DNA of 64,000 bases from Deltaproteobacteria bacterium (GTDB lineage: Bacteria; Myxococcota; UBA727; VGSZ01): assembly GCA_016177705.1 (NCBI GenBank), contig JACOUT010000009.1, forward strand, positions 769,519 through 833,518, in the 5' to 3' direction. The stretch's first letter is position 1, and each line of letters starts with the position of its first letter. Of this stretch, positions 31,661 to 50,926 are shown one piece after another. A program made the position numbers and the translations under genes. Under the pieces are notes generated by a model that was not told where the DNA came from, did no database searches, and worked only from the letters and a program-made list of their open reading frames with translations.

Positions 31661-33829
31661 CTAGCCCGTTTCGCCCTCGACGTCGTCGGGCTCGGGGTCC
31701 ACCGGATCCGCCTCGACCGGCTCCGCCGGGGTCGCCTCGGCGCGCACCTCGAGCCGCAGGCGCCGCTCGAAGACACGCTCGACCTCGAGGCCGCCGTACT
31801 CCGCGATCTGCTGCAGATCCCAGCGCCAGGCCTGCTCGACCACGCAGTCGCCGCCGAAGATGCCGACCACGTCGAGGATCTCCTTGTCCTCCAGCTCGAT
31901 GGACACCGCTGCGCGCGGTACGTGGCAGCGATCCGCCGCCGCGGTCAGCTGCTCTTGGAGGGCCTCGAGCTCGCCGACGATGGGCTTGGCGGTGCCGATA
32001 CCGCAGGTGATGCCGCGGCCGCTGTAGCCGCCGCAGCAGCCGCAGCCGCAACAGCCGCAGCCGCAGCCGCTCATACCAAAGCCCATGCCGTCCGGTTCTT
32101 GCGGCCGATAGTCGGGCACGGCCACGAGCGAAGTGACGCGTGAGACTGCGCCCACCGCCTTGGCTGCCGCGCGCACCACCTCGTCGTCGAGCTCGCGCGC
32201 CACCGGACCGTGCGCGGTGCGCGCCAGCGACAGGCGCTTGGTGGTGGCGGCCTCGTCGAGCGGCAACGCCAGCGGCTGCGCCCACAGGAAGCCGGTCAAG
32301 AACGACGGCGCGCGCGTGCCCACCGGCAGCACGCTCTGCACGCGCACGCCCCGGCCGGCGAGCAAGATGGCCGGCACCTCGCCGGACGACGTCACAGCGC
32401 CCTCGAGCGGATCGCGCCCCCCCACCTCGAGCGACACGTCGTCGATGCGCGTGGGCGCCACCAGGTGCGGCCACAAAAGGCCCTCCGGCTCATCGCCGGC
32501 GCCCAGGTCGACGAAGATGCCGCCGGTGCCCTCCACCGCCTCGGCGCGCGGATCCTCGTCCGGCACCACGCGCACCCACGAGAGCGGCTCGTCGACCGTC
32601 ACGTCCTCCGGCAGCGCGACCACGTGGGTGAGCACGCCGCCGCGCTCGAGCGCGTTGCCCAAGTGCACCTCACTGTCGGCGCTCCTCTGCACCAGGTCGG
32701 AGAGCACCACCACGCGCGGCGTCTCCTCGGGGGCGACGTCGTGCGCCAGCCGGTGCGCGAGCGCAAGGGCGCCGAGCAGGTCGCTGCCGTTTTGCGGCGC
32801 TACCTCGGGGAAGAAGCGCTCGCGCGGCGAGGCCCACGGGTCGACGACCAGCCAGGGGCGGCGCGCAAACGCGATGGCCGCGTAGCGCGCGTCGTCGGGC
32901 AGAGCGTCGAGCACGCCCTCCATGGCCGCGCGCGCCTTGGCGATGCCCTCGACGCCGGCGCTCTTGGACGCGTCGAGCACGAACACCACGCGCAAGGCCG
33001 GCGCCGGATCGGCGAGCGGGCGCGGCACGTCTATCTCGACGCGAACGGTGTCGACCGGGGCGACCGGCTCGAGCACCTCGGCGCCGTCCACCTTGCCCCA
33101 CTCCTCGTGCGGCGGAGGTGACAAGGGCCCAAGCGGCATCAGCCGCTCCAGGCTGACGCGCCCGCGCAGCGTGTCGGCCGCGTCCGGCACGACGTCGATG
33201 ACCGCGTCGCCCTCGCCGGCCTCGATGACGCGGGCGCGTGCGCCGTCGACGAAGAAGCGCCGCACCGAGGCGCCGCGCACCTCGAGGCGCTGATCGAGAT
33301 CGTGGTGTCGCGGCACGCGAAAGCGCCAGGCGCCGTCCACCGGCTCGCTCTCCACCACCCAGGTGCTCTCGACCACGATGGCGTCGGCGCCACAGGTGGT
33401 CGCTACCTCGAGGCTCACCTGATCGGTGTCGGTGCTGCAGCAGCCGTCTTCCAGCTCGGCCAGGAGCGCGGTGCGGCGCTTCCCTCCCTTGGCCTCTTCG
33501 GCGGGCACGCCGGTCATGAGCGCGGTCGAGAACGCGCCGAAGCGCTCGGCGGCGACGTCGTCGTCCTCGAGCGACGCCGCCGTGGTCGCGCCGTCCGCCT
33601 CCACTTTGGCGCCCACGGCGGTGCCGCCCGGCATCATCACCAACGTCGCGTAGTGGCCGGCCCCTGCTGGGTCGCGCCGCACCGTGTCGCGCAGCACCAG
33701 CACCGCGGCGCCGTCTCCCACCTCGAGCGAGACGGCGCGGGCGGTCTGCTCCAGCTCGATGAGCGACCCGTGCGGGGCACAGGGGGTGGCGTTGACGGCG
33801 AGGGCAAGGAGGGCGGCGGGGGAGAGCAT
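31661..33829 (-). CDS. vWA-domain secreted protein with a Cys-rich cluster
   Basis: A 722-residue protein with a signal-peptide-like start and an AGGGGG ribosome binding site. Residues ~30-240 resemble a beta-rich VIT-type domain. The central vWA domain has the metal-ion-dependent adhesion site DASKS (DxSxS) after [10 protein letters not shown]. Near residue 590 a compact Gly/Cys stretch packs about nine Cys into ~20 residues (CGCGCCGCGCCGG) followed by RGITCGIG. A further ~100 residues are alpha/beta ([13 protein letters not shown]). Surface adhesion or scaffolding is likely; the Cys cluster may bind metal or be crosslinked. Its stop is followed after 9 bp by the SRPBCC gene. Confidence 0.85.
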
Positions 33830-33853
33830 GCCCCCTGGGACCACGAGCGACCG

Positions 33854-34792: not shown

Positions 34793-36622
34793 CTACTGCG
34801 CCTGGTAGAAGGCCTGCCGTTCCTCGACGAAGCCGCGCACACCGGCGACCAGGCCGTCGGCGATGCTGTCCTGGTAGGCCGCCGACGCGAGCCGCTGCTC
34901 CTCGGTCTTGTTGGACAGGAAGGAGGTCTCGACCAGGATCGACGGCATGTGCGTGCCCATCAGCACGTAGAACAGCGCGTGCTTGAGCCCGAGGTCGGGC
35001 ACGTCGGTCCAGCGCTTCTTCAGGTGGCCCATGATGGAGCGCTGCACCTGCTTGCCCAGGCGCAGGCTGTCGTCGACGTTCGACTTCATCGCCAGGTCGG
35101 CCAGGATGAACTCGAGATCGGAGATGGAGCCCTCGCCGGCCTCGGCGTTCTCGCGCGCGGCCAGTTTCATGGCGTAGCGGTCGTGGGTGATGTTGAGCGT
35201 GTAGGTCTCGACGCCGCGCACGCGCTTCTGCGGGCTCGCGTTGCAGTGGATGGAGATGAACAGGTCGGCGGCGGCGGCGTTGGCGGCGTTGGTGCGGTCT
35301 TGCAGCGCGAGCGTGGCGTCGCCGTCGCGGGTCATCACCACCTCGACGTCGGGCATCTCGGCCATCAGCCGGTCGCGCACGCGCCGCGCGATCTGCATGG
35401 TGATGTCCTTCTCCTTGATGCCGGACGGTCCGATGGCGCCGGTGTCGTTGCCTCCGTGGCCGGCGTCGATGACCACGCGGTGCACCGCCAGGCCGAGCTG
35501 CTGCGAGATGGAGACGCCGCCCGGCGTGCCCGACTCGATGCGCTTCTTGACCTCGGCGGCCGTCGGCGCCTCCTTGGCGACGGCGCCCGCGACCACGTCG
35601 ACCGCGGGCGGCGCTACCGGCACCACCAGCCGCACCTCGAAGGGGTGGCGCACCACGTGGAGCGCAGGCTCGACGTCGCCCTCGAGCTCGACCACCAGCC
35701 GCACCACCTCGGTGTCGTACTGACCGGCGCGCACGCGGCTGATGACGCCGTCGTGCACCTCGATTGGCTGGATGTTGCGCTGGCCGAGCTTGGCCGGCGC
35801 CAAGTCGTAGAACACCCTGCGCGCGCCGCCGTCGGCGACCGGCACCTCGCCGCGCGTGATGCCGACGTCGCCAGAGACGCGCAACGTCACCACCGACTCG
35901 CCCGGCGTCTTCTCGTGCTTGATGACCATCACCTTGCGCGTCGGCGTGCCGGCGGGCGGCGTCTCGGGCAGCACCTCCACCGGCGTCAGCCGAGGCGACG
36001 CGGCCGCGGCCGGAGCTGCCGCAGGCGTGGGCGGTAGTGCCGCCGCCGGCGCAGCGGCCGGCTCGGTGACGCGGGCGATGGCGTCGCGCAGCGGCTCGTC
36101 GTTGGTCTTCGCAGGGAGCGCGCCCAGCTCCCGCTGCGCCTCGGCGCGCAGGTCGGCCTTGTCGCCCAGGGCGACCACGCGCTCGAGCATGGCGCGCCGC
36201 TTGCGGGGCTCGGGCGCGAGGCGCGCCGCGGCGAGCAGCGCGTCGTCGACCAAGGTCGAGCGCGGGAATCGATCGGCGCACGAAAGGAAGGCGTCGACGG
36301 CGGCCGTGCGATCGGCGTCGAGGCGCGAGACGTAGTACAGCTCCTCGAGCAACTGCGCGGCCACGAAGGCGGCGTCGTCGGCCTTGTCGCCCTCCTTGTG
36401 CGTGTTGGCCACCGCTTGCAGGCGCACGATCAGCTTCTCGTAGTGGTGCCGGAAGCGCTTCTTCTCCGGGTCTTTGCGCAGCGCCTCGACGTCCTTCTTG
36501 AGCGCCACGAAGGCGGGCAGCGACGGGTCGGGGTCGGCCGCGTGGACCGGCAGCGCGACCATCACGGCGAGCAGGAGCGGGAGCGCCGCCCTACAACGGG
36601 AACGGAGCCGGAGACGCTTCAC
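34793..36622 (-). CDS. N-acetylmuramoyl-L-alanine amidase (AMIN plus Amidase_3)
   Basis: A 609-residue exported amidase that cuts the stem peptide from MurNAc during cell separation. Signal peptide at ~1-28; a helical region to ~180; Pro/Ala linker; an AMIN domain at ~225-330 (VTLRVSGDVGITRGEV, VFYDLAPAKLG) for septal targeting; and Amidase_3 at ~385-600 with VVIDAGHGGNDTG (zinc His), GIKEKDITM (Glu), FISIHCNA (His) and ILVETSFLSN (catalytic Glu). GGAGG lies upstream of the GTG start, which overlaps the stop of the permease gene by 4 bp. AmiC-like. Confidence 0.92.
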   Translation of the reverse strand: MKRLRLRSRCRAALPLLLAVMVALPVHAADPDPSLPAFVALKKDVEALRKDPEKKRFRHHYEKLIVRLQAVANTHKEGDKADDAAFVAAQLLEELYYVSRLDADRTAAVDAFLSCADRFPRSTLVDDALLAAARLAPEPRKRRAMLERVVALGDKADLRAEAQRELGALPAKTNDEPLRDAIARVTEPAAAPAAALPPTPAAAPAAAASPRLTPVEVLPETPPAGTPTRKVMVIKHEKTPGESVVTLRVSGDVGITRGEVPVADGGARRVFYDLAPAKLGQRNIQPIEVHDGVISRVRAGQYDTEVVRLVVELEGDVEPALHVVRHPFEVRLVVPVAPPAVDVVAGAVAKEAPTAAEVKKRIESGTPGGVSISQQLGLAVHRVVIDAGHGGNDTGAIGPSGIKEKDITMQIARRVRDRLMAEMPDVEVVMTRDGDATLALQDRTNAANAAAADLFISIHCNASPQKRVRGVETYTLNITHDRYAMKLAARENAEAGEGSISDLEFILADLAMKSNVDDSLRLGKQVQRSIMGHLKKRWTDVPDLGLKHALFYVLMGTHMPSILVETSFLSNKTEEQRLASAAYQDSIADGLVAGVRGFVEERQAFYQAQ

Positions 36623-37821
36623 GCGGGGGCCTCCTGTGCAGCCATCTCGACCAACACGCCGCCACGGCGCCGCGACTCCTCGCGCAACACGAGCGCGAGC
36701 ACGGCCGCAGCGGGCAGCGCGAACACGACGCCGAGGAACCCCGCAGCCGTGCCGCCGAGCAGCACGGCGAGGATGGCGGCAAAGGGCGAGAGGCCGGCCT
36801 GCTCGCCGACGATACGCGGCGTCAGCAGGTAGCTCTCGACGAGCTGCACCACCACGGCGACGATCAGGGCGCCCACGCACGGCCACAGCGCCTGCTGCCG
36901 CAGCTCGAGCGCCGAGAAGGCGAGTGAGAGCACGATGGCGGTGGTGCCCGACGCGAACGGGATCAGGTAGGCGGCGCCGGCGAGCACGGCGATGGCGAGC
37001 GCGAGCGGCACGCCGGCGATGGAGAGGCCGACGGCGTACAGGCCCATCATGATGGCGGCGACCACCAGCTGGCCACGCACCAGGCGCGACAGCGTGTCGT
37101 CGACGAGCGGCAGGTAATACCCGAGCAGGCCGCGCGCGCCCTTGGGCACGAGCGGCGCCAGCACCTCGCGGATGCGCGGCAGCTCGTTGAGCGCGAAGAA
37201 GGTGAACACGGGCAGCAACAGCGCCTTGCCGATGAAGGCCGCGGCGCCGGCGGCGCCCTTCAGCATGCCGAGGGCGCCGGTCTTCACCGCCGCGCCGGTG
37301 CTCTTGGCGAACGGCAGCAGCTGATCGATCAGCTCCTTGCTGGCCTCGCTCGACAAGTCCGACACGCTCATGGGCACATCGACGCCGAAGCGGGTTTGGA
37401 TGAGCACACCCGCCTCGCGCAGCAGCGCCGGCAGGCCCGAGAACAACGCCACCAGGTCGGTGACGAGCGGCGGGATCATCAGCGAGGCGGCGAGCAGCGC
37501 GAGCACGGCGGCGCCGAGCACCACCAGGGCGGCGCCAGCGGCGCGCGGCATACGCCGCTCGAGCCGCGAGACCAGCGGGCCGCCAAGGAAAGTGAAGACG
37601 CCGACGAGCAGGAACATGATGAGCACGCCGCGCACGAGCCACAGCACGCCACCGACGGCAGCGAGCAGGAGCAGCGTCCACAGCAGGCGATCGTCGATCA
37701 GCACGGGGCGGGGTGTGCTGGCGGCCGCGGGCGGCGGCAGCGGCGGCGGCGGCGGCATCACCTTTTTCTTCTTCGACGCCACGGCGCCACCCTGCTCCAA
37801 GAGGTTCCAACCGTCAGACAT
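36619..37821 (-). CDS. AI-2E-family (TqsA-like) membrane permease
   Basis: A 400-residue integral membrane protein. After a Lys/Pro-rich cytoplasmic N-terminus come about eight membrane helices, including the paired N-terminal hairpins, the central amphipathic region (ALFSGLPALLREAGVLIQTRFGVDV) and the C-terminal pore-type segment (YLIPFASGTTAIVLSLAF; QLVESYLLTPRIVGEQAGLSP). These are family hallmarks. Substrates range from quorum signals to Na+/H+ exchange, so no substrate is assigned. It is first in the permease-amidase-recombinase-vWA-SRPBCC run and lies downstream of a strong terminator. Confidence 0.88.
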   Translation of the reverse strand: MSDGWNLLEQGGAVASKKKKVMPPPPPLPPPAAASTPRPVLIDDRLLWTLLLLAAVGGVLWLVRGVLIMFLLVGVFTFLGGPLVSRLERRMPRAAGAALVVLGAAVLALLAASLMIPPLVTDLVALFSGLPALLREAGVLIQTRFGVDVPMSVSDLSSEASKELIDQLLPFAKSTGAAVKTGALGMLKGAAGAAAFIGKALLLPVFTFFALNELPRIREVLAPLVPKGARGLLGYYLPLVDDTLSRLVRGQLVVAAIMMGLYAVGLSIAGVPLALAIAVLAGAAYLIPFASGTTAIVLSLAFSALELRQQALWPCVGALIVAVVVQLVESYLLTPRIVGEQAGLSPFAAILAVLLGGTAAGFLGVVFALPAAAVLALVLREESRRRGGVLVEMAAQEAPA

Positions 37822-37911: not shown

Positions 37912-38706
37912 TCAGTCGCTCTTCTCGGTGTCCTTGCCGGCGTCCCTTGCCGCGTTCCAGCGCACCCACTCGGGCTCGGCCTTGCTGTCCTCTTCCTCGG
38001 TGAAGGGCGTCGGCGTCGACGCCGCCACCGTGCCGCCCTTGGCGATGCGGATCTGCATCATCTTGCCCAAGAGGTGTTCGAATTCCTTCTTGCTCACCTC
38101 GGTGAAGGGCTTGGCGATGGGCTTGCGATTGGGATCGATCGGCCCCGGCGGCGGCGCCTCCTCAGCAGCAGCCAACAGCGGCGCCGCCACCGCGACCGCG
38201 CCGTTGTAGACGCGCACCACGGTGGCCTCGTCGCGCTCGACGTTGACGCGGAAGACGGTGCCGCGCACGCCGGCGACGGCGTTTTGCGTCTTGACCTGGA
38301 ACTTCGAGTCGTCGCCGACCAGCTTCGAGACCTTGGCCCAGGCCTGCCCCGCTACCAGCGTAGCGTCGACCCTGACCTCCTTGGACTTGCCGTCGAACGA
38401 GGCGCCGTCGAGGCGCAGCTCGGCGGCCGGGCCGACGCGCACCACCGAGCCATCGGCGAAGGTGATCTCGGCGCGGGAGCCCTCACCGGTTTTGACGACG
38501 CTGCCGGGAGCGAGCTCCTGGCCGCGTTTGACGCGCGCGAAGGTCGGCTCGGCCTTGCCGTCGGCCGAGACGCCGGCGGTGACCTCACCCTTGACGAAGG
38601 TTGCCTTGGCGGCGGCCTTGGCGGCTCCGCCGGCCTCGGCGTGTCCGGCGAACAGCGCGAGCGCGCCGGCCGCGAGCAGCGGTGCCAGGAGGATTCGTGC
38701 GTTCAT
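37912..38706 (-). CDS. Secreted FecR-domain protein
   Basis: A 264-residue protein with a signal peptide (cleavage near AEAG) and a FecR-like domain at ~40-170: ITFADGSVVRVGPAAELRL, FQVKTQNAVAGVRGTVFRV. That box is typical of FecR-type domains found in exported proteins that are not sigma-factor regulators. The C-terminus is charged and carries no membrane helix. AAAGGAG sits upstream of the ATG. Third gene of a minus-strand operon, followed by an intrinsic terminator. It may work with the two LPP20/FlgT-type proteins upstream. Confidence 0.82.
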   Translation of the reverse strand: MNARILLAPLLAAGALALFAGHAEAGGAAKAAAKATFVKGEVTAGVSADGKAEPTFARVKRGQELAPGSVVKTGEGSRAEITFADGSVVRVGPAAELRLDGASFDGKSKEVRVDATLVAGQAWAKVSKLVGDDSKFQVKTQNAVAGVRGTVFRVNVERDEATVVRVYNGAVAVAAPLLAAAEEAPPPGPIDPNRKPIAKPFTEVSKKEFEHLLGKMMQIRIAKGGTVAASTPTPFTEEEDSKAEPEWVRWNAARDAGKDTEKSD

Positions 38707-38737
38707 GGGCGACTCCTTTGCTCGAGCACGCTGCGCG

Positions 38738-39892
38738 TCACTTGAGGACCAGCACGACCTTGCCGCGGGCGACCTCGGTCACTTCCACGGTGTATTTGCC
38801 GGCCTTCTTGCCCTCGATGGCCGCGGCCAGCGCCTCGGCGCCGCCCTCGACCTCGACGTCGTAGGTGGCGACCTTGTTCTTGACCTCGCGCTGCTCGATC
38901 TTGGACGAGGACAAGACGCGCTGCACCAGCTCCTTGAAGGACTTGGCAGCGCCGAAGCTCGGCACGTCGCGCACCACCACCTGCACGTGGCCCTCGTTGA
39001 CGAGATCACTCGACCAACGCGCCGTCACCTTCTTCATCATCTCGTCCATCACGGTGTCGACGATCATCTTGCTCTTGCCGCCGCCGTGCTCGACCGCCTT
39101 GAGCGCGTTCTCGGGGCTGATGCCGAGGATGTTGGTCGACTTGAAGGCGGTGGCCTCGATCTCGTTGGTGGCGGTATTGATCATCTTGACGTTGGCGCTC
39201 ACCGAGTAGCTGTTCATCTTGGTGCCCTCGGTGATGGCGTTCTTGTTCTCGCCCTTGATCACCTTGCCCTGGCCGAGCACCACGTACTGCGCGTTCGAGT
39301 TCTTCACGATCTTGTCGATGTCTTCCTGGGTCAGGTCGCCGTTGGCGCTGACCTCGGTGACCTTGATGCCCGGCTCGACGATGGTGAAGCAGGCGTCGCG
39401 GAACGCGGAGCTGAACATGGTCTCGATCATGCCGCGCTCGGTCGACCATTTGGTCTCGTCGCCGACCTTCTCGACGAACACCAGCGAGACCTTGGGGTTG
39501 TGGTTGGCCTTGATGACGGTGCAGATGGAGCCCTCGATGGCCTCCTTCGACACCTTGGCGGTCAGCTTGATCTTCTTGGTGGTCTTGGTGTCGCCGTCGG
39601 TGAGCGAACCCCACTGCTCGTCGCTGATGACGCCCTTGGCGGTGGTGGCGATCTCGTCGGCGACCATCTGGAAGTTGCGCACGATGGTGTTCGACTCGAC
39701 CAGGACGCCGATGCCCTGCTCGATGGCCTTGCGGCGCGCGTCGCGCTTCGCGTTCTTCTCGGTCTGGGCTGGGTCGCCGTCGAGGATGGCGGCCTCGCCC
39801 TCGACCGTGACGGTCTTGACGTCCGCGAGGACTGGGCTCGACGCGATGAGGGCGGCGAGGAGCCAGGGCGTGTGCTTCATGCGTGTAGTCAT
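38738..39892 (-). CDS. Secreted FlgT_N/LPP20-like protein
   Basis: A 384-residue exported protein. The region after the signal peptide (EGEAAILDGDPAQTEKNAKR, DARRKAIEQGIGVLVES) resembles the FlgT N-terminal domain, in which a similar helix packs against a beta-sheet. The middle contains an alpha/beta region resembling TolB-N or CsgG-type folds (SAFRDACFTIVEPG, NSNAQYVVLGQGKV), and the C-terminal ~100 residues have a second domain (KSFKELVQRVLSSSK). AAGGAG precedes the first ATG. No flagellar genes are nearby, so a flagellar role is not claimed. Second of three genes in the operon. Confidence 0.78.
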   Translation of the reverse strand: MTTRMKHTPWLLAALIASSPVLADVKTVTVEGEAAILDGDPAQTEKNAKRDARRKAIEQGIGVLVESNTIVRNFQMVADEIATTAKGVISDEQWGSLTDGDTKTTKKIKLTAKVSKEAIEGSICTVIKANHNPKVSLVFVEKVGDETKWSTERGMIETMFSSAFRDACFTIVEPGIKVTEVSANGDLTQEDIDKIVKNSNAQYVVLGQGKVIKGENKNAITEGTKMNSYSVSANVKMINTATNEIEATAFKSTNILGISPENALKAVEHGGGKSKMIVDTVMDEMMKKVTARWSSDLVNEGHVQVVVRDVPSFGAAKSFKELVQRVLSSSKIEQREVKNKVATYDVEVEGGAEALAAAIEGKKAGKYTVEVTEVARGKVVLVLK

Positions 39893-39903
39893 GGGTGGCT
39901 CCT

Positions 39904-40737
39904 TCAGTCGACGAGGATGACGACCTTGCCGTCCGCCAGGAACGACAAGTTCTGAGTGGGGTCGCGCAGCTTGTCGGCGTCGCCGTTGGCGATGACCAGG
40001 TCGGTCTTCGACTTGTCGACGAGACGGAGGCCCTTGACCACCAGCGGCTTGTCGCCGACGCGCTCGCCCGCCTGCGCGTCCGCCTTGACGTAGCCGACGA
40101 TGCCGCCCTGCTTGAGGCCCTTCTCCGAGACCACCTCGGTGCCGTAGACCTCCTTGCCGGCCTCGTCGACGACGCGCGGCGCCATCGACGGCGTCAGCCC
40201 GAGGCCGCGCGCGTTGATGATCAGGCCGGTCCAGTTGGCCGCCCCTTCGCTCGAGACCTTCTTCGGCTTCTTCGGCTTCTCGACCAGCGCGTTGGTCAGG
40301 TTCTCGTCGATGGGCATCTGCACCACGACGTCGACCGAGCCGTCCGAGTAGTACTTGGTGTCGACGACCTTGAAGCCCTGCGCCATGCCTTGGATGCGCG
40401 AGCGGATCTCGCCGTTCGACATCACGTCGCCGGCGCTCCGCGAGGCGGTCACCTGGATGCCCTGGATGGTCTCGATGACGTTCCTGAGGGCGTCGAGCTT
40501 GGCGGCGCGCTCGGCGTTCAAGCGCGCGACCGCGACCGGGCCGTCCTTGAGGTTGGCGGCGCCCGAGCCGGTGGCGGTGACGGTCTTCTTCGACCAGTTG
40601 ATCTCACCGTGGCCGACCTTCTGCACCACGCTCTCGTCGGCAGCGGCGGCAGGATCCTTGTCGCCCGCCCATGCGGGCAGCGCCAAACCGACGGCGAGCA
40701 GGCCCGCGGCGAGCGTCATGTTGATGGTCTTGAGCAT
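39904..40737 (-). CDS. LPP20-family secreted protein
   Basis: A 277-residue protein with a signal peptide (LALPAWA) but no lipobox. The first domain matches the LPP20 family (VTATGSGAANLKDGPVAVAR, AKLDALRNVIETIQG), the second half is a beta-rich region (TGLIINARGLGLTPSMAPRV) similar to others in this family. It belongs to the same fold class as the FlgT_N-like neighbour, so the operon may carry two related proteins plus a FecR domain. A GGGAGG ribosome binding site is upstream. First gene of the operon; 123 bp of upstream DNA before guaA's end likely holds the promoter. Confidence 0.8.
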   Translation of the reverse strand: MLKTINMTLAAGLLAVGLALPAWAGDKDPAAAADESVVQKVGHGEINWSKKTVTATGSGAANLKDGPVAVARLNAERAAKLDALRNVIETIQGIQVTASRSAGDVMSNGEIRSRIQGMAQGFKVVDTKYYSDGSVDVVVQMPIDENLTNALVEKPKKPKKVSSEGAANWTGLIINARGLGLTPSMAPRVVDEAGKEVYGTEVVSEKGLKQGGIVGYVKADAQAGERVGDKPLVVKGLRLVDKSKTDLVIANGDADKLRDPTQNLSFLADGKVVILVD

Positions 40738-40860: not shown

Positions 40861-42408
40861 CTACTCCCATTCGATGGTGCTCGGGGGTTTGGAGGAAACG
40901 TCGTAGACCACGCGGTTTACCCCCCTGACTTCGTTGATGATTCTGTTCGAGATCCGGCTGAGGACTGCATGTGGCAGCTCCACCCAGTCGGCGGTCATGC
41001 CGTCGGTGGATTTGACGCACCGCACGCAGACGGTCTCGTCGTAGGTGCGAGCGTCGCCCATGACGCCGACGCTGCGGACCGGCAAGAGCACCGCGAACCA
41101 CTGCCACAAGGGCCCCTGCACCTCGCCGCGCGCGAGGGCGGCCTCGATCTCGACGCGCACGACGGCGTCGGCCTGACGCAGCAGGTCGCAGCGCGCGCGC
41201 GTCACCTCGCCGAGCACGCGGATGGCGAGCCCCGGACCGGGGAACGGCTGTCGTTGCACCACGGCGTCCGGCAAGCCGAGCTCCTTGCCCAAGCGCCGCA
41301 CCTCGTCCTTGAACAGCTCACGCAAGGGCTCGAGCAACTTCAAGTGCATCTTCTCGGGCAAACCGCCGACGTTGTGGTGGCTCTTGATGACCGCGGTGGG
41401 CCCGCCGTGGAAGGAGACGCTCTCGATGACGTCGGGGTAGAGCGTGCCCTGGCCGAGCCAGTCGCAGCGCGGCAGATCCTTCGCCACCTCCTGGAACACG
41501 TCGATGAAGATGTGGCCGATGCGCTTCCGCTTCTGCTCGGGATCGGTGACGCCCTCGAGCGCGGCCATGAAACGATCGCTGGCGTCGAAGATGCGCACGT
41601 CCATCTTCAGGTCATCGACGAAGAGCTGGCGCAGCGCCTCCACCTCGCCCAGCCGATGCAGCCCGCTGTCGACGTAGACACACGTCAGGTGCTGACCCAT
41701 GGCCCTGTGCAACAGCACCGCCGCCACCGACGAGTCGACGCCGCCCGACAGCGCCATCACCGCGCGCGCGTCGCCGACGGTGCGCTTGATCTCGGCGACC
41801 TTGTCGGCGGCGAAGCTGCCCATCTTCCACGAGGGCGCCAGACCGCAGACGTCGAACAGGAAGCGCGCGAGCATGCTCTTGCCGTCGGGCGTGTGCACCA
41901 CCTCGGGGTGGAACTGCACGCCGAGCCAGCGGCGCTTGTCGTCGAAGGCGGCCGCGACGGGACAGGTATCGCTGTGCGCCGTCGCCACCATGCCGGCGGG
42001 GAGCGCCGCCACCTGATCGCCGTGGCTCATCCACACGTCGAGCTGGCGCGGCAGACCAGCGAACAGCCCGCCGTCCTTGTCGACGTGGATGCGGGCGCGG
42101 CCGAATTCGCGCGCGCGCCCCGGCTGCACCTTGCCGCCGTTCTCCTCGCTCATCACCTGCAGCCCGTAGCAGATGCCGAGCAGCGGCACGCCGAGCGACC
42201 ACAGCCCACGATCGGGGCGCGGCGAGCCGGCTTCGTGCACGCTCGCCGGCCCGCCCGACAGGATGATCGCCGCCGGGTCGAACGCCTTGATCTTGGCGAG
42301 CGGCGTCGTGCACGGCACGATCTCGCAGTAGACCTCGAGTTCGCGCACGCGGCGCGCGATCAACTGCGTGGTTTGCGAGCCAAAGTCGAGGATGAGGACG
42401 CGCGCCAT
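40861..42408 (-). CDS. guaA: GMP synthase (glutamine-hydrolysing)
   Basis: A 515-residue enzyme that aminates XMP to GMP using glutamine and ATP. The N-terminal glutamine amidotransferase domain has the nucleophile in LLGICYGLQ and the His/Glu pair in GVQFHPEVVH. The ATP pyrophosphatase domain has the P-loop LSGGVDSS, and the C-terminal dimerisation domain ends with the usual PPSTIEWE. Length and order are canonical. It is downstream of guaB but separated from it by an AgmX-like gene. Confidence 0.97.
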   Translation of the reverse strand: MARVLILDFGSQTTQLIARRVRELEVYCEIVPCTTPLAKIKAFDPAAIILSGGPASVHEAGSPRPDRGLWSLGVPLLGICYGLQVMSEENGGKVQPGRAREFGRARIHVDKDGGLFAGLPRQLDVWMSHGDQVAALPAGMVATAHSDTCPVAAAFDDKRRWLGVQFHPEVVHTPDGKSMLARFLFDVCGLAPSWKMGSFAADKVAEIKRTVGDARAVMALSGGVDSSVAAVLLHRAMGQHLTCVYVDSGLHRLGEVEALRQLFVDDLKMDVRIFDASDRFMAALEGVTDPEQKRKRIGHIFIDVFQEVAKDLPRCDWLGQGTLYPDVIESVSFHGGPTAVIKSHHNVGGLPEKMHLKLLEPLRELFKDEVRRLGKELGLPDAVVQRQPFPGPGLAIRVLGEVTRARCDLLRQADAVVRVEIEAALARGEVQGPLWQWFAVLLPVRSVGVMGDARTYDETVCVRCVKSTDGMTADWVELPHAVLSRISNRIINEVRGVNRVVYDVSSKPPSTIEWE

Positions 42409-42453: not shown

Positions 42454-43722
42454 TCAGGTGCCCGTCGGCTCGTCGAAGTCATAGACCCGGACGTCCCGCG
42501 CCGGCTGCAACACGAACGGGAACGACAGGCGCTTGGGCTCGTCGACCAGGCCGTCGCCCAGGTACCAGTCGGCGGCCATCTTCTCGACGCACTCGCCGAC
42601 CAAGGTCAGGCCGGCGCCATCGACCTCGACGTGCGCATCGGCGACGCGACCGTTCGGCAGCAGGGTCAGCTCGAGCACCAAGCGGCCAGCGCGCGTCGGA
42701 TTCCCCGCCAGCCCCCAGCTCTCGTAGCAGTAGCGCACCGAGCCGTGGCGCTCGCGCACCTCGGTGGTCAGGTGCTTCTTCACCGCGGGGTCGAGCGCCT
42801 CCTCGATGGACACCGTGGTGACGTGGGCGTCGGGCACGTCGACGAGCTGCACCGGGATGGGCGCGCGCTCGATGCGCGGCGCCAAGCGGTGATCGCGCTT
42901 GGCCTTCTCCACGCGCTCCTTCAACATCTCGGCGAGCCGCGACTCGCCGATGCCGACCAGGCCGTTGCCGGCGCCGGTGGTGGCGGGATCGACGGGCACG
43001 AGGCCGCCGAGGCCGGCGCCGAGCTCGGGAGCGCGGGCCATCGACTGTGCCAGCTCGCCGAGCGCGTCACTCAGCTCGACGCCCTCGTTGCCGACGTTGA
43101 GGGCGCGGCGCATCTCGTCGAGCAACTGCTCGACGGTGGGCCCACCCTTGGTGCCGCGCGCCGGCGCGCTCGGCAGCCCCAACTGGCGTGTGAGCTCGAG
43201 CCGCTCGGCCTCCTCGGGCGCGTGGCCCGTGGCGGCGACCGCGGCGGGACCGCTCGTCGGCGCAGTGCCGCCGGTGACCAAGAGCCGGCGCAGATCGCCT
43301 TTGACGCCGCCGCCTGCCTCGGGGTCGAGCTGCGGGCGCGGCGCCAACACCAGCGCGGAGACCACGCACGCCTGCACCGCCGCGCCCACCATGGCAGCGT
43401 GAAACAGCGTGCCGTCGAAGGTCGAGAGACGGCCGGCGTCGGCCTCGGGCACGGAGCGGGAGGCGACGAGCGCATGGCCCGCGGGCAGCTCCACCAGCAC
43501 GTCGGCGTCGGCGTAGATGGGCTCCTTGCCCACGCCCGCAATCTCGATCTGCCCGCCGGTGGCGCGCGCCTTCAGGCGCTCCCCGGTGCGCAGCTTGAGG
43601 GTGGCGCGCCTACCTTTGACCGTCACGACATCGAGCACCGTGCCCTGCCAAAGCAGGGCCAGACGCCAGACGTCGCGGGAATGACGGGGCATGCGGGACG
43701 AGTCTGACAGATCGAAGCGCAT
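42454..43722 (-). CDS. AgmX/PglI-type protein with TonB-like C-terminal domain
   Basis: A 422-residue protein. Residues ~110-135 form one hydrophobic segment (HAAMVGAAVQACVVSALVLA) and the C-terminal ~120 residues match the AgmX/PglI C-terminal domain, recognisable by VRYCYESWG, GRLVLELTLLPNGRV and the final CVEKMAADW. In Myxococcus such domains occur in gliding-motility and envelope-associated proteins; related TonB-like domains transmit energy to outer-membrane partners. The N-terminal region is soluble and beta-rich. An ATG at 43692 is an alternative start. It separates guaB and guaA. Confidence 0.8.
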   Translation of the reverse strand: MRFDLSDSSRMPRHSRDVWRLALLWQGTVLDVVTVKGRRATLKLRTGERLKARATGGQIEIAGVGKEPIYADADVLVELPAGHALVASRSVPEADAGRLSTFDGTLFHAAMVGAAVQACVVSALVLAPRPQLDPEAGGGVKGDLRRLLVTGGTAPTSGPAAVAATGHAPEEAERLELTRQLGLPSAPARGTKGGPTVEQLLDEMRRALNVGNEGVELSDALGELAQSMARAPELGAGLGGLVPVDPATTGAGNGLVGIGESRLAEMLKERVEKAKRDHRLAPRIERAPIPVQLVDVPDAHVTTVSIEEALDPAVKKHLTTEVRERHGSVRYCYESWGLAGNPTRAGRLVLELTLLPNGRVADAHVEVDGAGLTLVGECVEKMAADWYLGDGLVDEPKRLSFPFVLQPARDVRVYDFDEPTGT

Positions 43723-49171: not shown

Positions 49172-49315
49172 CGACGGTCGCCGATGCTACGCGCGGGGGG
49201 TGCGGCGAGGCAAGGCTGGCGGTCGGCCCGCAGGCGGCGCGGCCGGCAGCACGCGCCGTCACCACGAGCCGACGCGAGCTTTTGCGCCGGGCCGGTCCTG
49301 GGCCAGGATGCCCCC

Positions 49316-50926
49316 ATGTCATCGCGCCTCCTCCCCCAGATCGCCGCAGCACTCGCTGCACTGCTCACCGGGCTGCTCGCGTGCGGCGCCGCCGCGGCGC
49401 TCGCGCACGTCGGCGACGGACGCTCCGCACAACCCGGCGACGTGGTGGAGCCGACACCGGCCGTCGACGCCACCGCGCCCATTCCGCAGGACGCAGGCCC
49501 CGTGCCGGTCGACGCCGGCCTGCCGCTCGTGGCGACCGAACAGCCGGTGACGGCGGAGCCGACACCGACCGCGATCGCCGACGACGGGACCACCGCACCC
49601 GTGCCGACCTCGACGCCTCGAACGAACGAGCCCGCGCCCGCCGTCGACGAGCCCGCGCCCTCGGTCGACGAGCGGGCACCGCGCATCGATCCTGCCGGCG
49701 AGCGCGCCCCGGAGACACCGCCGCAGGCCGCCGAGGAGGCCGTCGTGCCCGACGGCATCGGCTTCGGCGGGGTGCCCGCGCTCGCCTACGACGCCGACAA
49801 CGGCTTCGGCTTCGGCGTCATCGGCAACATGTTCATCCATGACGGCGAGACGCGCCCCTATCGCGCCTCGGTGATGCTGCAGCTCTTCATGACCACCAAG
49901 CTCGTGCACGACCACCACCTCACCGCCGACTGGCTCAAGGTGGCCGGCTTGCCGCTGCGCCTGTGGTCGCGGCTGGGCTACCTGCAGTCGCGCTCGCAGA
50001 ACTACTGCGGGCTCGGCGGCGACGTCGCGTGCGATCCGGGGCTGGCCGAGGCCGAGGCGGCGCGCCTGAACCTCGACGGCGACGAGGCCGACACCTTCGT
50101 GCAGCACTACTACCAGCGCCGCTTCATCAACCCCTACGCACAGCTCCAAGCGCGCTGGGCGCTGGTGGAGGCACCCGCGCGCTTCGAGGTGACCGGCGGC
50201 CTGCGCGGCGGTTGGTTCATCCCGGGCACCTGGGACGACGAGGACGGCGACGGCGGCGCCGACCTCGCCCCCTTCCCCGGCAGCCTGTACGCGGGCGAGT
50301 TCCCCGAGGGCGAGCCCGGCTTCGAGACGATCGCTCAGCTCGGCGTCATGCTCGACACGCGCGACAACGAGCCGGCGCCGAACGAGGGCGTGTGGCTCGA
50401 AGCGTCGGCGCGGGCGTCATCGCCGTTCATCGGTAGCGCCTGGCAGTGGGCGGGCGGCAACGTCACGCTGCGCGGCTACGCGCCGCTCGACGACGATCGC
50501 ACGCTGGTCTTGTGCAACCGCCTGATCTTCGACGGCGTCATCGGCGACCCACCGATCCAGTCGCTGGTGCGCCTGGGCGGCAGCAACGACTTCTACGTGC
50601 TCGGCGGCGCCGATCTCGGCCGCGGCATTCGCGCGCAGCGCTACATCGGCAAGCTGCGCGTCATCGACACCACGGAGCTGCGCTGGCGCTTCCTCGACAC
50701 CGAGGTGGTCGGGCAGCGGCTCGCGTTCGCGGCTGCCGGCTTCGTCGACGCCGGCCTGGTCGGGCGTGAGCTCACCGAGCCCGGCCCGATGCCGCTGCAG
50801 GCGGGCGGCGGCGGCGGCCTGCGCGTCGCCTGGAACGAGAACTTCATCATCCGCTTCGACGTGGGCTTCTCGTCCGTCGAGGCCTGGCAGCCGATGATCT
50901 ACCTGCTGATCGCCAACCCGTTCTGA
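49316..50926 (+). CDS. Outer-membrane Omp85/BamA-like beta-barrel protein
   Basis: A 536-residue protein. Signal peptide, then an Ala/Pro/Glu/Asp-rich segment to ~150 that contains a short repeat (DEPAPAVDEPAPSVDERAP), then a beta-barrel-like region with alternating aromatic strands: NGFGFGVIGNMFIHDG, VMLQLFMTTKLV, GLRGGWFIPG, FETIAQLGVMLDTRDNEPAP, VTLRGYAPLDDD, LRWRFLDTEVVGQRL, IIRFDVGFSSVEAWQPM. The closing Phe fits an outer-membrane barrel. It resembles BamA/TamA-type surface antigens without POTRA domains. ATG has AGGA upstream. Confidence 0.8.
   Translation: MSSRLLPQIAAALAALLTGLLACGAAAALAHVGDGRSAQPGDVVEPTPAVDATAPIPQDAGPVPVDAGLPLVATEQPVTAEPTPTAIADDGTTAPVPTSTPRTNEPAPAVDEPAPSVDERAPRIDPAGERAPETPPQAAEEAVVPDGIGFGGVPALAYDADNGFGFGVIGNMFIHDGETRPYRASVMLQLFMTTKLVHDHHLTADWLKVAGLPLRLWSRLGYLQSRSQNYCGLGGDVACDPGLAEAEAARLNLDGDEADTFVQHYYQRRFINPYAQLQARWALVEAPARFEVTGGLRGGWFIPGTWDDEDGDGGADLAPFPGSLYAGEFPEGEPGFETIAQLGVMLDTRDNEPAPNEGVWLEASARASSPFIGSAWQWAGGNVTLRGYAPLDDDRTLVLCNRLIFDGVIGDPPIQSLVRLGGSNDFYVLGGADLGRGIRAQRYIGKLRVIDTTELRWRFLDTEVVGQRLAFAAAGFVDAGLVGRELTEPGPMPLQAGGGGGLRVAWNENFIIRFDVGFSSVEAWQPMIYLLIANPF

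Follow-up and report, generated by a model that had tools for sequence, protein, structure and literature searches.

What might three adjacent genes for exported proteins, related to LPP20, FlgT, and FecR, be doing in a bacterium whose genome (a 6.9-Mb assembly that is 92% complete) has no match to flgI? The genes lie in a 64,000-nucleotide stretch of DNA, hereafter the window, from Deltaproteobacteria bacterium (Myxococcota; contig JACOUT010000009.1 of GCA_016177705.1, positions 769,519 to 833,518). All three are on the minus strand, in the order LPP20-like (39904..40737; 277 amino acids), FlgT-like (38738..39892; 384 amino acids), and FecR (37912..38706; 264 amino acids). We tentatively propose, at somewhat below even chances, that this trio encodes a flagellum-independent periplasmic ring or scaffold that is associated with the outer membrane and is built from modules of the H-ring or basal-disk type. 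On the observed side, the proposal draws on gene order, SHS2 ancestry, predicted folds, co-loss, fusions of FecR and LPP20-type domains elsewhere, and occurrence without flgI. From these we infer that the proteins may form a ring, be located at the outer membrane, and contact each other, as well as what the FecR protein may do.

The original prediction for this locus described a same-strand set of three genes with short spacers, signal peptides, and good ribosome binding sites. We agree: the gaps are 11 nucleotides (LPP20-like to FlgT-like) and 31 nucleotides (FlgT-like to FecR), each start is preceded by an AAGGAG- or GGAGG-type ribosome-binding site, and all three N-termini look like cleavable Sec signal peptides (the latter two read by eye). 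The three genes are probably co-transcribed. The absence of flagellar and iron-uptake genes nearby was also noted, and Pfam finds no flagellar, TonB-receptor, or sigma-factor families among 24 other open reading frames (these are a subset of those in the window, and many have no match to any family).

Two of the proteins had been expected to share an LPP20/FlgT-type fold, and profile comparison bears this out: hhalign aligns the LPP20-like protein to the N-terminal domain of the FlgT-like protein at 97.3% (E = 2e-11, 87 columns). Both have a homologous SHS2 domain of the FlgP/FlgT type. The Pfam models for LPP20 and FlgT_N score below their cut-offs for the proteins from the window (E = 0.004 and 0.008, respectively). 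Over the family alignments, however, we consider both assignments firm: with E up to 0.01, LPP20 is found in 20 of the 34 aligned LPP20-like members (best 1.5e-18) and FlgT_N in 32 of the 34 FlgT-like members (best 3e-16).

When compared to solved structures, the LPP20-like profile matches FlgP from Campylobacter (1e-17), FlgP from Vibrio (4e-13), and Tp0624 from Treponema (6e-12). The AlphaFold2 (AF2) model of the LPP20-like protein (predicted local distance difference test, or pLDDT, of 89) matches domains D1-D2 of Tp0624 (5jir) in Foldseek, with E = 8e-16; using the structure comparison tool VIA, it aligns to 5jir_A with Z = 20.8 over 228 residues, at a root-mean-square deviation (rmsd) of 3.0. 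The SHS2/FlgP-type domain, which corresponds to D1, is encoded at 40306..40626 (-), and the D2-like C-terminal domain at 39907..40236 (-), where the HMMER alignment to 5jir_B reaches the last profile column. The protein ends at D2: the OmpA-like D3 is absent, and LPP20 is the sole Pfam family matched. By VIA, D1 also resembles Lpp20 from H. pylori (5ok8; Z = 8.2, 94 residues, rmsd 3.1) and, weakly, FlgT (Z = 5.3 and 5.2); by the tool's own note, Z under 8 is common, and a family that is missing from its lists is no evidence of absence. The HMMER alignment to FlgP (9hmf) is ungapped through the region between the SHS2 helix and the second strand, so the insert found there in FlgP is present in the LPP20-like protein as well. 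The study of Tp0624 regards D1-D2 as a functional unit but leaves its role open, reports nearly 50 bacterial proteins that have this unit and lack D3, and compares D1 with the domain by which trigger factor binds the ribosome (PMC5104382). A phage origin was also considered for the LPP20-like protein and was rejected, as tblastn gave no match in 50,697 phage records.

The AF2 model of the FlgT-like protein (pLDDT of 79) has three domains: the first is of the SHS2 type and has an insert that is predicted to form a hairpin, the middle one is CsgG/PelC/FlgT-M-like, and the third is C-terminal. The best Foldseek matches for this model are to FlgT (3e-9 and 2e-8); others are to CsgG (3e-5) and FlgP (8e-5). 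The match to FlgP (9hmf; TMt of 0.60) covers the SHS2/FlgT_N domain (39548..39817 on the minus strand; AF2 residues 3-92). The hairpin (39641..39703, minus strand; predicted strands at residues 41-49 and 52-61) sits where PMC12222027 places an insert linked to rings; according to that paper, whether this SHS2-type fold forms rings correlates with the presence of an insert after the helix and before the second strand. The middle domain (38999..39517, minus strand; also similar to TolB-N) has as its top VIA matches PelC (Z = 10.9), CsgG (Z = 10.4), and FlgT (8z5n_0; Z = 10.2, 153 residues at rmsd 3.3, in an alignment that spans model residues 102-351). TolB (Z up to 8.9) and LpoB (Z = 7.7) rank below these. 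Among the 34 FlgT-like members, Pfam matches FlgO in eight, CsgG in five, and LpoB in four, and FlgT_C (PF16538) is not among the families matched at E of 0.01. The C-terminal domain (38744..38992, minus strand; residues 278-360) is predicted to be beta-alpha-beta-beta-alpha-beta-beta, with block-mean pLDDT of 82-91 from residue 281.

The middle domain could also be explained without a ring. If the FlgT-like protein acts like LpoB or TolB, then it might activate a cell-wall enzyme or stabilize the envelope, and the trio would maintain the peptidoglycan or the outer membrane. Both folds are among its matches, some members match LpoB in Pfam, an Amidase_3/AMIN gene follows the downstream AI-2E gene, and the authors of PMC5104382 proposed that Tp0624 has a role in envelope scaffolding. 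However, both folds rank under PelC, CsgG, and FlgT, and we think that this explanation is improbable. Another idea is that the trio is part of a PelC- or CsgG-like apparatus for exporting polysaccharide or protein, which would fit the two best VIA matches and also the CsgG genes in the related clusters of Omnitrophota and Auribacterota. But within the window, no export or barrel gene is directly beside the trio (some 8 kb separate it from the nearest one seen, an open reading frame with an Omp85 domain at 49184-50926). We consider a role in export to be very unlikely. Of the CsgG channel, which has a lipid anchor and pore-forming beta-strands, the FlgT-like protein matches the fold; by eye, it has no lipobox Cys.

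The trio is not peculiar to this genome but recurs over a large group of bacteria from soil and water. In a sample of 116 genomes from the phylum, each at least 90% complete, we found the LPP20-like protein in 92 and the FlgT-like protein in 54, and 51 of those 54 have the trio in the order LPP20-FlgT-FecR. As for the other three, the match in G003 is at a contig end, the one in G034 is a partial match within another gene, and in G076 the FlgT-like and FecR genes are linked but there is no match to the LPP20-like protein. An earlier set of 39 genomes gave a similar picture: 23 have the FlgT-like protein, and the ordered trio is on the same strand in 20 of these (G003 and G024 are cut at contig ends, and in G016 the genes are unlinked). 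In G019, the trio has about 2.3 kb between the FlgT-like and FecR genes. The nearest named relatives are mostly from Myxococcales, Myxococcota, or Deltaproteobacteria and include Corallococcus, Pyxidicoccus, Hyalangium, and Citreicoccus. The gene-set conservation and the shared domain support the original suggestion of an uncharacterized envelope complex, although physical complex formation is presumed.

Gene loss also ties the proteins together. In one family (f13), which we take to be Myxococcaceae from its titled relatives, the LPP20-like protein occurs in 52 of the 54 genomes listed, and the FlgT-like protein and a strong, linked FecR match are in exactly the same 15 genomes. On a tree built from the LPP20-like and AI-2E proteins of 14 titled loci, joint absence of the FlgT-like protein and FecR appears at three distinct positions (L089; L092 and L101; and L091 and L105); assuming no regain, this requires three or more losses. 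In these five loci, the LPP20-like gene, an open reading frame for a PEGA-like protein, and the AI-2E gene remain, and the FlgT-like gene and most of FecR are gone. The same loss is seen in a one-contig genome (G054). Masking of the sequence in some Corallococcus and Myxococcus records was rejected as a cause: there was no N in the nine loci that we checked, and the one-contig genome has the same loss. In the Myxococcaceae loci that we read, the FlgT-like and FecR genes have between them a gene for a small PEGA-domain protein that, by eye, resembles a lipoprotein (L087:10865-11239, the locus in which Pfam was checked).

Outside the phylum, FecR and LPP20-type domains are found within a single protein, once in Omnitrophota (locus L110) and once in Auribacterota (the genome with locus L119). 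The FecR matches of these fusion proteins are above the cut-off (5e-11 and 2e-7, respectively), and their Pfam matches to an LPP20-type domain score 21.8 and 25.6 bits versus a cut-off of 25.9; the L110 protein matches our LPP20-like profile at 7e-18. L110 and L111 also contain LPP20-LPP20-FlgT-CsgG clusters. Neither fusion genome has a match to flgI (the completeness of both is not given). That the three proteins have a shared function is well supported.

If the trio does form a ring or scaffold at the outer membrane, then its products would be exported, soluble periplasmic parts that do not need a flagellum. The FlgT-like protein would oligomerize as FlgT and FlgP do, using its SHS2 domain together with the hairpin that follows the SHS2 helix and precedes the second strand, and its CsgG/PelC-type domain would form or line a ring beneath the outer membrane. 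The LPP20-like protein, as a Tp0624 D1-D2 unit, might dock on this ring or extend it through the homologous SHS2 domain. The FecR protein would be an exported partner that is required jointly with the FlgT-like protein, perhaps as an adaptor, a cap, or a sensor.

Several observations weigh against this proposal. By eye, none of the three proteins in the window has a lipobox Cys, which leaves the link to the outer membrane unexplained. The whole-chain TM-scores between the FlgT-like protein and FlgT are about 0.3 (Foldseek), the hairpin was modeled with block-mean pLDDT of only 55-62 (62 for its first strand and 55 for its second), and the corresponding insert in the LPP20-like protein was modeled mainly as helices rather than as a hairpin. 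The complex of three proteins goes beyond the models, which predict the individual chains as monomers only. Also, L095, which is beside L091 and L105 on the tree, lacks the FlgT-like protein and yet keeps FecR. The remaining points on this side concern flagella and CHASE2 genes and bear on two other explanations.

First, the trio might be an H-ring-like set that serves flagella where they are present and is a leftover elsewhere. Over all 116 genomes, the trio is associated with flgI (odds ratio of 4, p = 0.004; not corrected for kinship). Within f13, all six genomes with flgI keep the trio, and 39 of the 48 without flgI lack it (p = 0.0002). In G033, a second FlgT-like copy shares the contig with flgI, at a distance of about 70 kb. 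However, the association across the whole sample is due to the pattern in f13: outside of that family, flgI is found in 13 of 37 genomes with the trio and in 8 of 25 without it (p = 1.0). Similarly, in the 39-genome set, flgI is present in 8 of 23 genomes with the FlgT-like protein versus 5 of 16 without it. Among the 52 trio genomes of the larger sample, 19 have flgI and 33 have no match to it, including a one-contig genome (G105), and 8 of the 27 genomes with flgI lack the trio. In all 19 genomes that have both, they are on different contigs (many are draft contigs, so distant linkage is possible). There may be an old link to flagella in f13. We set aside a fully flagellar explanation because of the distribution and linkage of flgI, despite the association in f13, and a flagellar module or its relic seems to us quite improbable, slightly more so than a role in envelope maintenance.

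The second explanation, and the main rival to a ring, is a periplasmic sensing module, in which FecR would sense the state of the envelope or a ligand, with the LPP20-like and FlgT-like proteins as partners, and would signal to a membrane sensor that is encoded elsewhere. This would be akin to the LysM-FecR proteins of a Burkholderia biofilm operon in which, as described in PMC5192318, FecR adjoins a CHASE2 kinase. In Auribacterota, the gene for the FecR-LPP20 fusion (L119:961-2274, minus strand) is divergent from a CHASE2 gene (L119:2403-3698, plus strand). And in three Myxococcota genomes, including our own (L130:1775-4840, on G000:C7; also L131 and L132), a protein of about 1,000 amino acids with an N-terminal region like the M and C domains of FlgT is encoded beside a CHASE2-type gene (Pfam CHASE2 was checked for L132). 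The large proteins from L130 and L132 also have weak transglutaminase and TPR matches. Such pairings of FecR and FlgT-type modules with CHASE2 genes elsewhere favor a sensory role. On the other hand, there is no CHASE2 match in any trio locus among 133 records (with flanks of at most about 10 kb), so CHASE2 was rejected as a constant partner of the trio.

The FecR protein from the window has a clear FecR domain (Pfam 1e-18, above the cut-off, residues 70-171) and also a conserved C-terminal segment. Against a sensing module, Pfam finds neither LysM nor an anti-sigma family in it. Where an anti-sigma factor would have a cytoplasmic domain and an inner transmembrane helix, the chain begins with a stretch that resembles a signal peptide (by eye). 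Its nearest named NCBIfam matches, Lsa33 and LipL45 from Leptospira, are far below the cut-off. Regulation of iron uptake in the manner of FecR was rejected, because there is no anti-sigma part and no sigma-factor or TonB family among the 24 scanned neighbors. Overall, we consider the sensing module to be unlikely, but it is less unlikely than the other alternatives to a ring.

The surroundings of the trio are partly conserved. Downstream is a gene for an AI-2E family permease (36619..37809, minus strand; Pfam 2e-40), which is within 700 bp of FecR in 14 of the 25 titled trio loci with enough flanking sequence. Upstream is guaA (40861..42408, minus strand; a GMP synthase, judging by its translation), and in 6 of 24 such loci, the LPP20-like gene has an open reading frame that matches the guaA profile ending within 2.2 kb upstream of it. 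guaA is probably a positional anchor that lies outside the system. An intrinsic terminator had been predicted after FecR. There is indeed a hairpin with a 9-bp stem, all of it GC, and a run of six T after it (37873-37852, minus strand; 38 nucleotides past the FecR stop), but a 66-nucleotide stretch around it does not fold better than shuffled versions (z = -0.58), and a scan of the region gave 4 terminator-like sites versus 2.2 expected, so the call rests on the GC stem and the run of T. No RNA family reaches its gathering score within the window. Elsewhere in the window, the protein encoded at 42454-43722 (-) has an AgmX/PglI-type C-terminal domain (38.8 bits, just under the NCBIfam cut-off of 40), and a VWA-domain protein with a Gly/Cys-rich stretch (31661-33844, minus strand) adjoins a polyketide-cyclase/lipid-transport-like gene.

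We found no description of the gene trio in the open PubMed Central literature. No open paper there mentions LPP20 together with FecR (as whole words), those that pair two of LPP20, FlgT, and the FecR domain concern flagellar motors, and the one that mentions LPP20 and Myxococcus concerns H. pylori. The component folds are known; within the literature that we searched, what is new is how they are combined, where they occur, and that they are coupled to FecR. FlgP/FlgT-type proteins have been described as additions to flagellar motors. Here, such modules form a conserved trio without detected flgI, tied to a FecR domain by co-loss and, outside the phylum, by fusion. This makes it possible to test where these rings came from. 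A stronger claim, which we consider unlikely, would be that the trio makes up a periplasmic ring machine in its own right that is independent of the flagellum, is widespread in Myxococcota, and has relatives in other phyla. Flagellar H-rings and basal disks would then have been recruited from envelope rings of this kind. The trio also sets the D1-D2 unit of Tp0624 in a gene context; the role of that unit was left open by the authors of PMC5104382.

How does the trio compare to known systems? The FecR protein shares its FecR domain with anti-sigma sensors and with LysM-FecR proteins. Unlike the former, it has a signal peptide, shows no cytoplasmic anti-sigma part, and is not accompanied by a sigma factor or a TonB receptor among the scanned neighbors; unlike the latter, it does not match LysM. 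The outer-membrane rings of CsgG and PelC are similar to the FlgT-like protein in the fold of the middle domain, and CsgG genes are present in the clusters from two other phyla, but the FlgT-like protein has no lipobox Cys, has an SHS2 domain at its N-terminus, and has a different C-terminus. The LPP20-like protein matches both D1 and D2 of Tp0624 (the 228-residue alignment with Z = 20.8), but it lacks the OmpA-like D3, and its gene is linked to those for the FlgT-like and FecR proteins. The last comparison is to the H-ring of Vibrio, which consists of FlgT, FlgP, and FlgO (PMC6375700), and to the basal disk of Campylobacter, which contains FlgP (PMC12222027). According to PMC5758724, its homology searches did not turn up any of the accessory proteins in delta-proteobacteria. 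The trio differs from these flagellar structures in having no lipobox Cys, an extra Tp0624-D2 domain, and FecR as a third gene, and it occurs in genomes without flgI (our own and 32 others of the 52) and not on the flgI contig. What the trio has in common with them is an SHS2 domain whose helix is followed by an insert, a CsgG/FlgO-like middle domain, export of the proteins, and LPP20/FlgP-type and FlgT-type genes that adjoin each other.

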